A stretch of DNA of 64,000 nt from Streptomyces sp. NBC_00250 (lineage in GTDB: Bacteria > Actinomycetota > Actinomycetes > Streptomycetales > Streptomycetaceae), in assembly GCF_036192275.1 (NCBI RefSeq), contig NZ_CP108088.1, positions 4,217,501 through 4,281,500 of the forward strand, written 5' to 3'. Below the pieces are notes generated by a model. The model was not told where the DNA came from, did not search any database, and saw only the letters and a list, made by a program, of their open reading frames with translations. Both the position numbers and the translations under genes were made by a program. Below, one piece after another: positions 1 to 17,077 of this stretch. Position 1 is the first letter of the stretch, and every line of letters begins with the position of its first letter.

Positions 1-39
1 TTCTGAGACTCCCGCCGACCACCGAAAGGAGACACCGCC

Positions 40-222
40 ATGGACACCCGCCGCAACCGCCCGGGAGCCATGCCGCTCCAGGCCCGGCCCGTCCACCGCG
101 ACGGCCCCGACGCCGGAGCCCGCGACGCCCGTACCGGCGCCGTGGCCGCCATGTCCTCCTGCGCCACCAAGACCGGCCCGGCCAGGCAGATGTGCTACGC
201 CCAGTACGGCATAGCCGGCTGA
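40..222 (+). CDS. Small peptide, type A (60 aa)
   Basis: A strong ribosome binding site (GAAAGGAG, about 8 bases before the ATG) precedes this 60-residue ORF. The C-terminal 23 residues, from an internal Met at base 151, read MSSCATKTGPARQM-CYAQYGIAG and contain two Cys plus several Ser/Thr. The same segment recurs at 728-799 in broken form, so it is a duplicated unit and not chance coding. No signal peptide, membrane segment or known domain is visible. It could be a precursor whose C-terminal part is processed, or translation could begin at base 151; neither is proven. It sits 27 bases upstream of the first MFDET peptide gene and is probably in one transcript with it. Confidence 0.5.
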   Translation: MDTRRNRPGAMPLQARPVHRDGPDAGARDARTGAVAAMSSCATKTGPARQMCYAQYGIAG

Positions 223-249
223 CCGGAGCCTTCGAGGAAAGGAACCGTC

Positions 250-450
250 ATGTTCGACGAGACCCACGCCACCCCTGAGACCGGCAGCGACACTCCCCGT
301 CGGTCCGCCGCCGGGCAGCTCCGGCTCCAGCTCCCCCAGCAGTCCGCACCCGTCCAGCGCGACAAGTACGCCGAGAGCAGCGACGCCTCCGGCGGCGCGG
401 CGGCCAGCGGCATCTTCGGCAGCCTGCTCGGCGACATCATCCCGTTCTGA
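250..450 (+). CDS. Leader/core-like small peptide, copy 1 (66 aa)
   Basis: First of three tandem paralogues. It starts at ATG behind GAGGAAAGGAACCGTC, a good ribosome binding site. Residues 1-53 are hydrophilic, rich in Gln, Ser, Asp and Ala, and nearly identical to the other copies. Residues 54-66 form a hydrophobic tail, GIFGSLLGDIIPF. This two-part layout, a constant N-terminus followed by a variable short C-terminus, is what precursor peptides of ribosomally made natural products, pheromones or bacteriocins look like. There is no Cys, so lanthionine or thiopeptide chemistry is unlikely. I do not recognise the family, and no maturation enzyme or transporter is evident beside it in the window. 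Confidence 0.7.
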   Translation: MFDETHATPETGSDTPRRSAAGQLRLQLPQQSAPVQRDKYAESSDASGGAAASGIFGSLLGDIIPF

Positions 451-495
451 CGCCCCCTTGCCCCGCAGCAGGGGCCGCAGGCAGAGGAGAGCAGC

Positions 496-702
496 ATGTT
501 CGACGAGACCCGCGCCACCCCCGAGACCGGAGGCGATACACCCCGCCGGTCCCCCGCCGGGCAGCTCCGGCTCCAGCTCCCCCAGCAGTCCGCACCCGTC
601 CAGCGCGACAAGTACGCCGAGAGCAGCGACGCCTCCGGCGGCGCGGCGGCCAGCGCCATCCTGTCGCCGGGCATCGTGGCCCAGATCAAGGAATTCTTCT
701 GA
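496..702 (+). CDS. Leader/core-like small peptide, copy 2 (68 aa)
   Basis: Second tandem paralogue, behind GAGGAGAGCAGC. The first 53 residues differ from copy 1 only at positions 6 (His to Arg), 13 (Ser to Gly) and 20 (Ala to Pro). From codon 21 to codon 53 the DNA is identical to copies 1 and 3. The tail is quite different: AILSPGIVAQIKEFF, 15 residues, still hydrophobic and still ending in Phe. The sharp boundary between constant and variable parts at residue 53/54 supports a leader/core split. It has no recognised domain, signal peptide or Cys. It is probably cotranscribed with its neighbours (45-base gap to copy 1). Confidence 0.7.
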   Translation: MFDETRATPETGGDTPRRSPAGQLRLQLPQQSAPVQRDKYAESSDASGGAAASAILSPGIVAQIKEFF

Positions 703-727
703 CCCCTGTACCGGCACCGGGGCAGTC

Positions 728-799
728 ATGTCCCGCTACGCCACCACGACCGGCCCGGCCGGCCGGATGTGAGACGCGAACTCCGACGTGAACGCCTGA
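728..799 (+). pseudogene. Broken second copy of type A peptide
   Basis: This 23-codon stretch aligns without gaps to the last 23 codons of the 40-222 gene. MSRYATTTGPAGRM matches MSSCATKTGPARQM, then a TGA (770-772) stands where the intact copy has TGC (Cys). Reading on past that stop gives eight more codons and a final TGA at exactly the position of the intact gene's stop. Similarity also extends about eight codons upstream of the ATG, but the N-terminal half of the intact gene is missing. It is best read as a decayed duplicate left when the type A plus MFDET unit was duplicated. A 14-residue peptide made up to the first stop cannot be excluded. Confidence 0.55.
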
Positions 800-839
800 C
801 AGCCGACCCCTGACCGGGCATCAAGAGAAAGGAACCGTC

Positions 840-1040
840 ATGTTCGACGAGACCCACGCCACCCCCGAGACCGGCAGCGACACTCCCCGTCGGTCCGCCG
901 CCGGGCAGCTCCGGCTCCAGCTCCCCCAGCAGTCCGCACCCGTCCAGCGCGACAAGTACGCCGAGAGCAGCGACGCCTCCGGCGGCGCGGCGGCCAGCGG
1001 GTTCCTGGGCAGCCTCCTCGGCGACGTCCTGCCGTTCTGA
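840..1040 (+). CDS. Leader/core-like small peptide, copy 3 (66 aa)
   Basis: Third tandem paralogue. Its ribosome binding region (AGAAAGGAACCGTC) and first 53 codons match copy 1 with one synonymous change (CCT to CCC). The last 13 codons then carry eight base changes, giving GFLGSLLGDVLPF instead of GIFGSLLGDIIPF. All substitutions keep hydrophobic character, and the glycines, Ser, Asp and terminal Pro-Phe are retained. The contrast between leader and tail suggests recent duplication or gene conversion of the leader with change concentrated in the tail. No function is assigned; a secreted or membrane-active peptide is one option. Confidence 0.7.
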   Translation: MFDETHATPETGSDTPRRSAAGQLRLQLPQQSAPVQRDKYAESSDASGGAAASGFLGSLLGDVLPF

Positions 1041-1113
1041 ATCCTGAGTCACCTGCGGGACCGGTGCCGGGGCATGCACCCGACATCGGTCCCACCCGAT
1101 CCGAGGAAGCATC

Positions 1114-1344
1114 ATGCGACTCGATCTGCCGAAGCTGGCGCAGGCGGTGGACCGGCGGGAGCACTACCCGCCGTATCGCTTCGTGACCGTTTTCGTGGAC
1201 GTCGACGGGAAGGAGCAGCGGATACACACCCAGCCGCGGGGCAACTTCGGAAGTCTGCCCGGGGGTCCTGCGGCGCTCGTGCACAGCTACGGCCGCGGTT
1301 GGCAGAGCGCCCCGGCGGGCTGCCGGTGGTCCGGCGTCCTGTGA
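1114..1344 (+). CDS. Hypothetical protein (76 aa) in the peptide cassette
   Basis: The ATG follows CCGAGGAAGCATC, a usable ribosome binding site, 73 bases after peptide copy 3 and 73 bases before the hemopexin-like gene, all on one strand. The product is 76 residues with a short predicted beta region (RFVTVFVDVDGKEQRIHTQ) and a Gly/Pro/Ser-rich C-terminus containing a single Cys. There is no signal peptide or membrane segment and I do not recognise a family. Its position suggests it belongs to the same unit, perhaps as a partner or accessory protein, but that is inference only. Codon use looks like normal Streptomyces coding. Confidence 0.55.
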   Translation: MRLDLPKLAQAVDRREHYPPYRFVTVFVDVDGKEQRIHTQPRGNFGSLPGGPAALVHSYGRGWQSAPAGCRWSGVL

Positions 1345-1417
1345 GGGATGAGGGAAAGGGAAGGGGACGGGCCACCCGCCCGGCGGCCCGTCCCCGCAGG
1401 AAGGAGCCGAGAGTCCC

Positions 1418-2770
1418 ATGGTCACAGTGAGGTCGGCCGTCTCCTGGCCGAACGACAAGACGTACCTCTTCCACGCCGACGACACCTACGACCGGTACGA
1501 CTCGGTCACCGGTGTCCGCGAGGACTCCGGACTGCCCCTCTCCAACTGGCCCGGCCTCCCCCGCTCCCCCGACGCCTTCGTCTGGTGGGGTGCGGGCAAG
1601 GGGTACGCCTTCCTCGGGAACACCTACGTCCGCTACGACAACCCGACCGACAACAGCGCGGACACCGTCGAGGCCGAGTACCTGCCACCCCACTTCACCC
1701 TTGAGGAGGGCTGGCCGGGACTGCCCACCGGAGCCGGCGGCGGACCCGACTGGCGTACCGGCATCGACGCGGCCGTGAACTGGGGAAACGGCAAGGTGTA
1801 CCTCTTCAAGGGCGACTCCTACGCCCGGTACGACATGACCGCGGACCGCGTCGACCCCGACTACCCCCGCCCCATCGCGGGCAACTGGACGGGGCTCTTC
1901 CCCGGCGGCGTGGACGCCGCCACCTACCCGGGCGGCCGGTTCGCCTACTTCTTCCGCGGCGAGGAGTTCCAGCGCTTCGACGTGGATGCCGACCGGGTGG
2001 ACGCGAGCGGTCCATTGGACGCCTCCTTCCGTCTCGCGCCCACCCCGTCCGGGGCCGTGGCCCCGGCCCGCATGCTGACTCCGGCCCAGGCGAACAAGCT
2101 CATGGCCGACCTGATCCGGCGCGGCAAACTGACCCTGAAGAGCCCGGCGTTCGTCGACGGACCGGCCGGGATCGTGTCACCGACGCCCGACCAGCGGGTC
2201 GTGGTGAGCCCGCCGACGTTCGGCGGAGTCCGCTACACGAACCAGATCGCGCCGACGTCCGCGGTCATCGACAACCTCGACCAGCGCATGCTGATCGCGC
2301 TGTACCGCCTCACCCGCTGGATCAACTCCTCGGCGCCGGACGTCGCCGAACTCCTCCACCTGGGCATCGGCCACGGCGGACCGAACCTGAAGGACTGTCA
2401 CAACCAGGGCCGCGCGCTCGATCTCTCGGGCATCACCGGGGAGTTGAACGGGTCCGCGTTCACCCGGTCGGTGAAGAAGGACTGGGGCAACCTGCCGCGC
2501 CCGGCCGGCGTCAGGGTCCGCATCGACCCCGCCGTGGACCCGCTCGGGTTCGGCCTCTTCACGACCGCCTTCCGGTTCGCCACGTTCGAGTGCGAGGCGA
2601 CGACGATCGGCGCCGGCAACAAGTGGCCCATGCCCGAACTCGGCGGCACCGGGTTCGTGATCTACCCGGACTACGCCGCCGACGCCGCCCCCGGCAGCGA
2701 CAACGCCAACCTCCGCGCCGCCCACCAGGACCACTTCCACATCCAGATCGGCGTCACCCGGCTGCCCTGA
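1418..2770 (+). CDS. Hemopexin-like propeller fused to M15-like metallopeptidase
   Basis: 450 residues in two parts. Residues about 5-205 contain four hemopexin-type repeats with the pattern DA(A/F)..WG.GK.Y.F.G..Y.RYD (for example NWGNGKVYLFKGDSYARYD), enough for one four-bladed propeller. Residues about 260-450 resemble the D-Ala-D-Ala carboxypeptidase / extensin-like M15 fold: H328-NQGRAL-D335 fits the HxxGxAxD zinc motif and H439-F-H441 fits the C-terminal HxH. No signal peptide or lipobox is present, which is odd for a putative wall peptidase; it may stay in the cell, be released by lysis, or be exported by a specialised system. The ATG follows AGGAAGGAGCCGAGAGTCCC. It lies last in the small-peptide cassette. 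Substrate is unknown. Confidence 0.75.
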   Translation: MVTVRSAVSWPNDKTYLFHADDTYDRYDSVTGVREDSGLPLSNWPGLPRSPDAFVWWGAGKGYAFLGNTYVRYDNPTDNSADTVEAEYLPPHFTLEEGWPGLPTGAGGGPDWRTGIDAAVNWGNGKVYLFKGDSYARYDMTADRVDPDYPRPIAGNWTGLFPGGVDAATYPGGRFAYFFRGEEFQRFDVDADRVDASGPLDASFRLAPTPSGAVAPARMLTPAQANKLMADLIRRGKLTLKSPAFVDGPAGIVSPTPDQRVVVSPPTFGGVRYTNQIAPTSAVIDNLDQRMLIALYRLTRWINSSAPDVAELLHLGIGHGGPNLKDCHNQGRALDLSGITGELNGSAFTRSVKKDWGNLPRPAGVRVRIDPAVDPLGFGLFTTAFRFATFECEATTIGAGNKWPMPELGGTGFVIYPDYAADAAPGSDNANLRAAHQDHFHIQIGVTRLP

Positions 2771-2791
2771 GGACCCGGCGCAGCGGGCGGT

Positions 2792-9282: not shown

Positions 9283-10218
9283 ATGACCACCACCCCCACC
9301 CCCACCACCCCCGCTTCCGCCGCAGGCACCTGGGCCCTCGGTGACCTCACCGTCCGTCGCGTCGGCTTCGGGGCCATGCGGCTGCCCCAGCGCGGTGAGG
9401 CGCTCGTCGAGCAGGCCGTGCCCCGCGACCGCGACGAGGCGATAGCCGTTCTGCGCAAGGCCGTCGACCTCGGCGTGAACCACATCGACACCGCCGCCTT
9501 CTACTTCTCCCCGCTCCGCTCCGCCAACGAGCTGATCAGCAGCGCCCTCGGCGGCCCCTACCCCGACGACCTCGTCATCGCCACCAAGGTCGGCCCCTGC
9601 CGGGACGCCTCCGGTGCCTGGAGTGAGCACGCGCGTACCCCCGCAGCGCTCCGCGGCCAGGTCGAGGAGAACCTGCGCCAGCTCGGCCGCGACCACCTCG
9701 ACGTCGTCAACCTCCGTATCGTCGGCACCGATTCGATCGCCGAGCGCTTCGGCGCCCTCGCCGAGCTCCGCGAGGCCGGCCTCATCCGGCATCTCGGCGT
9801 CTCCAACATCACCCCCGAGCAGCTCGCCGAGGCGCAGTCCATCGCCCCCGTCGTCTGCGTGCAGAACATGTACGGGATCGGGGTCCGCCCCGAGTACGCG
9901 GACTTCGTGCGTCTCTGCGGTGAACAGGGCATCGCCTTCGTACCCTTCTACGCCATCGCCGCCGCCGGCCGTCAGGGCGGGGCCACCGCCCCCGAGAGCC
10001 CCGAGGTCCTCGCCGTCGCCGAGGCGCACGGTGCGAGCCCCGCCCAGGTCCGGATCGCCTGGACCCTCCACCAGGGCCCCCACCTCCTCGCCATCCCCGG
10101 CACCGGCGACCCCGACCACCTCGCCGCCAATGTCGCCGCAGGCGCGCTCCGGCTCACCACCGAGGACCTGGCCCTCCTCGACACGCTGCACCGCGAGCCC
10201 GTTCCCGAGGCTCCCTAG
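9283..10218 (+). CDS. Aldo/keto reductase
   Basis: 311 residues, NADPH-dependent (beta/alpha)8 barrel oxidoreductase. It begins LGDLTVRRVGFGAMRLPQ and shows the catalytic Asp69 and Tyr74 in HIDTAAFYFSP and Lys102 in VIATKVGP. The segment IRHLGVSNITPEQLAEA is the usual strand 6/7 signature. It starts 83 bases from the divergent GNAT gene; the next gene begins 12 bases after its stop, suggesting cotranscription. Substrate is unknown; related bacterial enzymes reduce aldehydes such as pyridoxal. Confidence 0.88.
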   Translation: MTTTPTPTTPASAAGTWALGDLTVRRVGFGAMRLPQRGEALVEQAVPRDRDEAIAVLRKAVDLGVNHIDTAAFYFSPLRSANELISSALGGPYPDDLVIATKVGPCRDASGAWSEHARTPAALRGQVEENLRQLGRDHLDVVNLRIVGTDSIAERFGALAELREAGLIRHLGVSNITPEQLAEAQSIAPVVCVQNMYGIGVRPEYADFVRLCGEQGIAFVPFYAIAAAGRQGGATAPESPEVLAVAEAHGASPAQVRIAWTLHQGPHLLAIPGTGDPDHLAANVAAGALRLTTEDLALLDTLHREPVPEAP

Positions 10219-16237: not shown

Positions 16238-17077
16238 ATGGACCTGAACAACCGTGACATCCGTACGATCGAGGACGTACTCACCCTGCTCGACGGGCTG
16301 TTCGCACCCGAGGCCGACCGGTGGTCCGACGGTGGGGCCGACTGGTGGGACGGGTTCTACGCCGACCGGGACAAACCGGTGCCTTTCTTCGTCGCCAAGC
16401 CGGACGAGAACCTCGTGTCGTACGGCGAGCGAGGGCTGCTTCCGGCCGGCGGCGGCCGGGCCCTCGACCTCGGGTGCGGGCCCGGGCGGAACAGCCTGCA
16501 CCTCGCCTCGCTCGGCTACCGGGTGGACGCCGTCGACCTCTCCCCCACCGCCATCCGGTGGGCGGAGGAACGCGCCCGGGACGCCGGAACCACCGGGATC
16601 CGGTTCGTCCGCGGCGACGCCTTCGCACCCGGCACCGGCCTCGACGGACCGTACGACCTCGTCTACGACTCCGGCTGCTTCCACCACCTGCCGCCGCACC
16701 GCCGCGTCGGCTACCTCGCGTTCCTGGACCGCGTCCTCGCGCCCGGCGGGCACTTCGCGCTCACCGCGTTCGCCGCCGGGGAGGGCGGCATGGGCTCCGA
16801 ACTACCGGACGCCGACTTCTACCGGCAGGGCCGGCTCGACGGTGGACTCGCCTATACGGACACGTCGTTGCGCACCCTTTTCGCCGAGCCGACAGAGCCC
16901 GGCCCAGCAGAGCCCCGCCCGACAGAGCCGGACCCGACAGAGCCCGGCCCGACCACCCCGGACCTGACACGGTCCGGACTGACCGAGGTCGAGATCCGTC
17001 GCATGCGCGACGAGCCCGCCGACTCCCCGTTCTTCGGCGAATCCTTCCTCTGGACCGCCCTCTTCCGACGCCCGTAA
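16238..17077 (+). CDS. Class I SAM-dependent methyltransferase
   Basis: 279 residues; ATG behind CGGAGGGGGATCCAG. The Rossmann SAM site is ALDLGCGPGRNSLHLASLGY (motif I), followed by VDAVDLSP (motif II) and a Phe-His-His stretch in SGCFHHLPPHRR. This arrangement is typical of small-molecule methyltransferases of the tellurite/thiopurine-like type. A Pro/Glu/Thr-rich insertion of about 26 residues (EPGPAEPRPTEPDPTEPGP) built from a DNA repeat interrupts the C-terminal part, before the final strand LTEVEIRRM. Substrate is unknown. Confidence 0.83.
   Translation: MDLNNRDIRTIEDVLTLLDGLFAPEADRWSDGGADWWDGFYADRDKPVPFFVAKPDENLVSYGERGLLPAGGGRALDLGCGPGRNSLHLASLGYRVDAVDLSPTAIRWAEERARDAGTTGIRFVRGDAFAPGTGLDGPYDLVYDSGCFHHLPPHRRVGYLAFLDRVLAPGGHFALTAFAAGEGGMGSELPDADFYRQGRLDGGLAYTDTSLRTLFAEPTEPGPAEPRPTEPDPTEPGPTTPDLTRSGLTEVEIRRMRDEPADSPFFGESFLWTALFRRP

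Follow-up and report, generated by a model that had tools for sequence, protein, structure and literature searches.

The closest described systems are the cyanobactin pathways without heterocycles, represented by anacyclamide and piricyclamide (families TIGR04446 and DUF5840). They combine a PatA-family protease with an APVxR leader and a G(L/V)E(A/P)S-like site, and each cluster encodes several precursors with differing cores. The consensus published for PatA is G(L/V)E(A/P)S, as given in one section of PMC10885120. The macrocyclization insert of PatG is described in a section of a 2015 review (PMC4663559), where it is also stated that cyanobactin clusters have been identified only in cyanobacteria and that the active ones always encode both proteases. 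Concerning the actinomycetes, a passage of PMC8510958 mentions a cyanobactin cluster in Streptomyces lydicus A02 and a cited count of seven in 1,110 Streptomyces genomes, no report of their expression being known to its authors; cyanobactin-like genes of a Saccharopolyspora appear in a passage of PMC10145562. In these passages the predicted clusters bear the label only, and the precursor classes, the missing macrocyclase and the helical cores presented below are not described. The clusters predicted in such surveys may include some of the present loci. Cluster-prediction software keys on the PatA/PatG family, and its label "cyanobactin" on an actinomycete may mislead chemically. Among the matches listed by searches of the open-access literature (titles and starts of abstracts), a PatA-only system with helical cores was not described.

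The window analysed here is a stretch of 64,000 nucleotides from Streptomyces sp. NBC_00250, whose base 1 corresponds to position 4,217,501 on the main contig; the genome measures 9.27 Mb. Its left end holds part of a 6.2-kb unit composed of a SARP gene, a protease gene, a class A precursor gene, three class B precursor genes, a class C gene and a hemopexin gene, the SARP and protease genes lying outside the window (Table 1). In L176, a related genome without the unit, blastn homology ends at L002:10554 and resumes at 16792, and the two ends are 57 bases apart there. In a second relative (L177) the flank matches end at 9836 and resume at 16799, with 736 bases between them. Because the empty site spans the SARP gene to the hemopexin gene, these two outer genes are tied to the system. 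The combination of one cyanobactin-type protease with several small precursors, whose ends resemble short membrane-active helices, suggests that the cassette is a peptide-making system related to, yet distinct from, the ring-making cyanobactin pathways. It resembles them by its PatA-type N-terminal protease and by a predicted PatA-type site (GAAAS) before the core. Unlike the anacyclamide and piricyclamide pathways, the cassette of the actinobacterial loci has neither a PatG macrocyclase nor a FAGDDAE-type follower, its cores are predicted amphipathic helices, two more conserved small proteins (A and C) accompany the precursors, and the protease belongs to a separate lineage.

Table 1. Features of the cassette, in window coordinates (negative numbers lie left of base 1).
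Feature	Position	Strand	Product	Remarks
6.2-kb unit	-3445 to 2791 (L002:10555-16791; window part 1..2791)			delimited by blastn against L176
SARP-type regulator gene	about -3435 to -2722	-		BTAD domain; divergent, upstream of the protease
PatA-type protease	-2414 to 6 (L002:11586-14006)	+	806 aa	TIGR03895; S8, PatG_D and PatG_C domains; PDB match
Class A precursor	40..222	+	60 aa	short leader PLQARPVHRD; core SSCATKTGPARQMCYAQYGIAG; two Cys ten residues apart
Class B precursor 1	250..450	+	66 aa	tail GIFGSLLGDIIPF
Leader motif P29-R37 (PQQSAPVQR), precursor 1	334..360	+		P29 and R37 invariant in 38 precursors
Predicted cleavage site GAAAS (residues 49-53), precursor 1	394..408	+		G49 invariant, A52 nearly so (38 precursors)
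Class B precursor 2	496..702	+	68 aa	tail AILSPGIVAQIKEFF
Predicted GAAAS-equivalent site, precursor 2	640-654	+		
Apparent relic of a class A core	728..772	+		MSRYATTTGPAGRM followed by a stop; between class B precursors 2 and 3; read from sequence
Class B precursor 3	840..1040	+	66 aa	tail GFLGSLLGDVLPF
Predicted GAAAS-equivalent site, precursor 3	984-998	+		
Class C protein	1114..1344	+	76 aa	L-x-L-P start, Y-x-P-Y, GRGW...W-x-G-x-L end (15-sequence alignment)
Hemopexin-repeat protein	1418..2770	+	450 aa	Pfam Hemopexin 9.1e-19; C-terminal domain with H-x6-D and H-x-H

An earlier, sequence-only reading had described three tandem genes between bases 40 and 1040 that share a leader of 53 residues. 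The three genes, with their lengths and the leader common to their products, were recovered exactly on re-reading; the span itself holds four small genes, the first of which (40-222) encodes a related but distinct precursor. That reading had also recognised no family and seen no modifying enzyme beside the genes, which holds within the window, but a protease of a named family ends at window base 6. Bases 1-6 are its last sense codon and its stop. The search left of base 1 for a neighbouring enzyme, which the same reading had proposed, thus leads directly to the gene of a PatA-type cyanobactin protease.

With 525 bits the protease exceeds the cut-off (421) of TIGR03895, the family of PatA/PatG cyanobactin proteases, and Pfam recognises in it the domains S8, PatG_D and PatG_C. 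The protease domain matches the cyanobactin N-terminal proteases of the PDB (4h6w, 4h6v, 3zxx and 3zxy, of which we take the last three to be PatA) at E 2.6e-88 to 1.3e-84, and the chains of the PatG macrocyclase (4h6x, 4aks, 4akt) at E 6e-44 to 1.4e-42. In all, 90 S8 domains were compared; the set omits pieces shorter than 220 residues, loci already represented by another copy (L056, L057, L058, L065, L069, L095) and weak or different matches (L066, L068, L071, L139), and L095 and L058, where the protease is frame-broken, served for the small genes only. The Asp-His-Ser triad is intact in the window protease and in all 34 single-protease rows. The spacing from the catalytic Asp to the His is 34 in every one of these rows; it ranges from 33 to 35 among the cyanobacterial PatA-type rows and from 71 to 170 among the 15 PatG-type ones. 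Two Streptomyces genomes with a pair of proteases display spacings of 34 and 39. With its spacing of 34, the window protease lacks the macrocyclization insert. At E up to 1e-30 the genome of the window contains no second member of the family, both matches being pieces of this same protease, and no PatG-type macrocyclase with the insert was found at this threshold.

In the tree of S8 domains the PatG rows form one group (support 100/99) and 31 cyanobacterial PatA rows another (98/96). In a third group (98/92) the 34 single proteases are joined by four proteins from cyanobacteria, one from an acidobacterium and one from a proteobacterium; the branch that sets the 34 rows apart is unevenly supported (95/51). 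One of the 34, L113, is labelled Rhodococcus but is placed in the Chroococcidiopsidaceae by the tree listing, so that its origin is unsure. A strict "PatA-only" rule for this lineage is weakened by Tolypothrix (L131), which belongs to it and has a PatG-type protein at its own locus. The AlphaFold model of the window protease was built from 8 sequences only and has a mean pLDDT of 55.9.

Two further observations concern the proteases. The Pro/Ala-rich linker of the window protease (L002:12700-12830, window about -1300 to -1170) contains repeats of APVQAAPVQAAPVQ that echo the APVQR motif of the substrate leaders, as low complexity or as a built-in pseudo-substrate. The loci L063 and L064 (Streptomyces G089 and G104) look like canonical cyanobactin loci with two proteases and precursors ending in FAGDDAE; their second protease falls among the PatG rows of the tree, yet its Asp-His spacing is only 39 and the long macrocyclization insert is missing.

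Each of the three class B genes has a purine-rich stretch 5' of its start, and the GC content at the third codon position is 0.93-0.95. Used as a protein query, gene 3 recovered 38 proteins (the window's own included), which excludes a chance origin of these reading frames; homologues and codon signature together rule it out. It is very improbable that the genes are untranslated or decaying, as the degraded remnant of a cyanobactin cluster. Such an explanation could draw on the relic between precursors 2 and 3, where MSRYATTTGPAGRM is comparable to MSSCATKTGPARQMC, the C-terminal end of the 40-222 product, and on proteases truncated or frame-broken in some genomes (L107, L095), but codon composition and start signals, homologues in many genomes and the catalytic triad intact in 34 of 34 rows speak against it. 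The relic would be a sign of duplication and decay within the cassette.

The layout of leader and core attributed to the three precursors is supported by the family. From an alignment of 38 class B precursors (18 loci), we observe that M1, P29, R37 and G49 are invariant and A52 nearly so, all of them in the leader or the cleavage site and none in the tail. Across the related loci the leader keeps the motif P-x-Q-x2-P-V/I-x-R, or a near variant, and a GVEA[S/N/D]-like site, with which the GAAAS of the window aligns. In 58 further class B proteins the predicted site is GVEAD (41), GVEAN (6), GVEPD (3) or a rarer form. The PLQARPVHRD of class A is a shorter version of the class B leader, and classes A and B, less clearly class C, share this motif. 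Against DUF5840 (threshold 25) the three class B precursors score 27.8, 24.1 and 24.6 bits; precursor 1 thus passes the threshold of a named family, which the first reading had not recognised, and precursors 2 and 3 stay just below it. All three fall under the TIGR04446 cut-off of 35, and at E up to 0.01 TIGR04446 and DUF5840 are matched by four and three of the 38 precursors, respectively.

Variable tails had been proposed, with a tail as conserved as the leader named as the finding that would contradict them. Between lineages the tails do vary. Within the clade of the window (41 rows, one a duplicate), where such conservation was partly found, they are semi-conserved: the mean majority frequency is 0.71 in the tail and 0.94, 0.69 and 0.76 in leader residues 22-37, 1-21 and 38-53, respectively. 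Between genes 1 and 3 the leader differs by one synonymous and no nonsynonymous change, and the tail by two synonymous and six nonsynonymous changes. Between the orthologues of gene 1 in the window and in Streptomyces sp. NBC_00572 (L072), the leader carries four synonymous and seven nonsynonymous changes, and the tail has no change. It thus seems that leaders are homogenised inside a genome and that tails are preserved from one genome to another, a pattern to be expected of a tail that is the product.

No known C-terminal follower is present in the window, where the tails end with F directly before the stop. That all tails end in Phe, as first noticed, is valid for the window; among 107 listed class B proteins the last residue is F in 45, L in 35, I in 21 and another in 6. 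In 69 further class B proteins, none of the searched follower motifs occurs after the core, the two pattern matches being located in leaders. A canonical cyanobactin pathway was ruled out on the missing macrocyclase and the missing follower. We also consider it quite unlikely that this is a strict cyanobactin system in which the tails become head-to-tail rings, e.g. GIFGSLLGDIIP, the final Phe serving as a follower of one residue and the ring being closed by this or another enzyme. The protease family and the relationship of the leaders favour such rings, as does the penultimate Pro, present in 0.95 of the 41 rows of the window clade, where nearly all tails end in Pro-Phe or Pro-Ile; the canonical precursors of two Streptomyces and several cyanobacteria end in PFAGDDAE, also with Pro before Phe. 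These Pro-Phe and Pro-Ile ends count against a linear product, because they could be a residual ring-closing signal. However, Pro is absent at this place in the tails of most other lineages, and ring closure is opposed as well by the protease without insert, by its being the only family member in the genome at the threshold given above and by the searched motifs missing from all 69 further proteins. A lanthipeptide or other Cys-based class was also rejected for the class B tails, as Cys occurs in one of 35 tails and the 6.2-kb unit encodes no such enzyme.

The tails differ in sequence between lineages yet keep the periodicity of an amphipathic helix, as judged by the hydrophobic moment, a criterion computed from sequence alone. 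At 100 degrees, 36 tails that do not belong to the window clade have a mean moment of 0.342, compared with 0.106-0.159 at 60, 80, 120, 140, 160, 170 and 180 degrees; 25 of these 36 tails exceed shuffled versions of themselves at p < 0.05. For 35 tails taken by coordinates it is 0.345, against a shuffle mean of 0.168 (reached by 0 of 300 shuffles), and for a later set of 52 distinct tails 0.358 against 0.187 (0 of 500 shuffles; 34 of 52 at p < 0.05). This later set derives from the 58 proteins matching the site (of the 69, one had no pattern match and 10 were already in alignment A6), and two of its tails were wrongly split by the pattern. As the tail sequences are related and not independent, these counts overstate the evidence. 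The leaders are also raised near 90-110 degrees, less sharply, with 0.267-0.297 at 100 degrees in two of three leader sets. The resemblance to short amphipathic peptides, initially drawn from the window, is supported as a general property of the family, with the exception of the second window tail AILSPGIVAQIKEFF, which has no significant amphipathicity (p 0.42). The net charge is neutral in 34, +1 in 11 and negative in 7 of the 52 later tails, and -1, 0 and -1 in the window tails.

From these data we favour, with a probability of about 0.6, a SARP-controlled, PatA-only branch of the cyanobactin proteases that releases linear, unmodified, amphipathic class B tails, probably acting on membranes, together with the class A peptide. 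The SARP would switch on the cassette, and the protease would recognise the leader of the precursors and cut behind GAAAS, the local form of the GVEA[S/N/D]-like site. The class B tails would then be freed as linear helices without modification, mostly of 12-25 residues and mostly of near-zero net charge. Most likely they would be membrane-active, as a bacteriocin- or surfactant-like set that includes the two-Cys peptide of class A. Temporins and aureins are short membrane-active helical peptides of frog skin released from a precursor by proteolysis. The tails are similar to them in length, in their hydrophobic amphipathic helix and in the proposed proteolytic release, and GLFDLIAKGIGGLIG and FLPLIPLVASLFA are alike by eye; homology is not expected, the tails being mostly of charge 0 and the leader and the protease different. 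The near-zero charge counts against the membrane reading, since the tails lack the net positive charge typical of classical cationic alpha-helical antimicrobial peptides. If the favoured reading is true, the cyanobactin machinery can be split, and its leader-cutting half is used without the ring-making half to yield a large and sequence-diverse set of helical peptides. If the tails carry no modification, the products could be synthesised straight from the genome sequence and their function tested in many strains.

Peptides of this kind could also be signals or biosurfactants that coat hyphae or spores or serve as pheromones, and not killers, which we regard as rather unlikely. Strong hydrophobicity with a charge near zero, SARP control in filamentous actinobacteria and the conservation of tails between sister genomes are consistent with such a role. 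However, the identity of the tails is lost between lineages while the amphipathicity stays, unlike what is expected of a receptor-bound signal, and such precursors also occur in Mycolicibacterium and in cyanobacteria, which are not known to form aerial hyphae.

The putative operator of the regulator was searched upstream of the protease. A SARP-like gene is present in 28 of 35 loci and is missing from six Mycolicibacterium loci and from L113. Three ACG triplets at a spacing of 11 bp occur within 320 bases 5' of the protease in 19 of 25 loci. Every other spacing between 6 and 24 yields a triple ACG in no or one locus, except 22 (3 loci) and 23 (6 loci). SARP sites consist of 11-bp repeats according to a part of PMC5930380. 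The ACG repeats are thus a candidate SARP operator, and the cassette has the features of a putative SARP-regulated cluster.

The class A gene directly follows the protease gene in all 27 loci that continue past the protease, among 35 examined (23 recognised by pattern and four, L059, L062, L073 and L113, by eye). The count omits L107, where the protease is truncated, and seven loci whose contig ends at or within the protease (L079, L080, L082, L088, L093, L098, L105). Protein searches returned 78 class A proteins, the names shown being "hypothetical protein" or "uncharacterized", and two Cys at a spacing of ten residues are conserved in 76 of them. Among 22 sequences compared with NCBIfam there was one weak match (0.048). 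A class A profile matched 10 of 295 Streptomyces genomes at E up to 7e-15, and seven further genomes at the background-like values of 3e-4 to 8e-3; from these 10 genomes the cassette is uncommon in Streptomyces. TIGR03895 has matches at E up to 1e-30 in 14 genomes, which include all of these 10. The other four are G089 and G104, with a protease pair and FAGDDAE precursors, and G191 and G266, with partial or divergent matches. The class A peptide, present beside the protease wherever the sequence allows a look, represents a second question of its own.

The class C protein has no Pfam family in any of 15 sequences and is a possible third substrate of the protease. In the protein of the last gene, the H-x6-D and H-x-H motifs are invariant in seven sequences of the C-terminal domain. 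This domain may be called LAS/M15-like at the level of these motifs only, as no match to M15 was found in Pfam or PDB profile searches; the AlphaFold model, from 6 sequences only, has a mean pLDDT of 64.1 and an unreliable C-terminal half. The last gene varies between loci: hemopexin repeats with the H-x6-D/H-x-H domain (window clade, L074, L077 and partly L061), this domain without a hemopexin match (L059, L073), a trypsin-like protein in five loci (L060, L062, L099, L102, L103) and a peptidoglycan-binding protein (PG_binding_1) in two loci (L102, L074). For the peptidoglycan-binding protein of L102, the PDB search gave no match at E up to 0.1. By hydropathy windows, a crude test, no N-terminal signal peptide was detected in the cassette proteins examined, and no transporter, exporter or immunity gene is encoded within the 6.2-kb unit; the missing exporter and immunity genes weigh against the favoured reading.

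These last results bear on self-lysis or cell death, in which the SARP-activated cytoplasmic protease would unmask permeabilising peptides inside the producer and so release a cytoplasmic wall-acting protein (hemopexin/LAS-like here, peptidoglycan-binding elsewhere). The proteins without signal peptide, the unit without transporter and the varying last gene, whose recurrent types include the motif-defined LAS-like domain and the PG_binding_1 protein of two loci, would agree with this. Against it, the LAS-like label is motif-based and finds no support in profile searches, the hydropathy test is crude, a transporter-free unit is compatible with an exporter elsewhere in the genome, and trypsin-like proteins hold the last place in five loci. 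We judge self-lysis improbable, about on a par with ring closure. Slightly less improbable, and still speculative, is a broader proposal where the SARP-triggered cytoplasmic PatA protease would unmask the variable helices, the near-universal two-Cys peptide and perhaps class C, whose joint action with a wall-acting enzyme would constitute a new mode of killing or suicide in actinobacteria and some cyanobacteria. In its logic it would resemble a holin-endolysin pair, with a cyanobactin protease as the building block.

When public genomes were scanned with eight aligned proteases, 72 loci were detected, and a PatG_C search over 396 genomes of the phylum matched four genomes and added one locus. 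The related loci belong to Streptomyces, Saccharopolyspora, Amycolatopsis, Mycolicibacterium and two cyanobacteria. In the latter, Spirulina sp. SIO3F2 (L092) and Symploca sp. SIO2C1 (L084), there are class B-like precursors that lack a follower; class A and class C proteins can also be recognised in L092. Searches with class B returned 103 proteins, with the same uninformative names as for class A.

In five Mycolicibacterium loci (L112, L120, L125, L127, L133) a hemopexin-repeat protein is located about 5 kb away on the opposite strand; that of L112 (L112:15001-16569) also has a HEXXH-type metallopeptidase-like segment. The leader motif is also present, together with the sequence L-x-G-A-N-x-N-D-P, in a conserved small protein at L084:3680-3913 (with a Cys-rich C-terminal piece), L118:10013, L132:10611, L134:10177 and L063:10500-10703, which may be another leader-bearing substrate. 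Finally, L131:5727 (Tolypothrix) and L135:10115 (a MAG of Oxalobacteraceae) encode small proteins that combine the leader motif with Cys-rich tails, next to a protease from the single-protease lineage.
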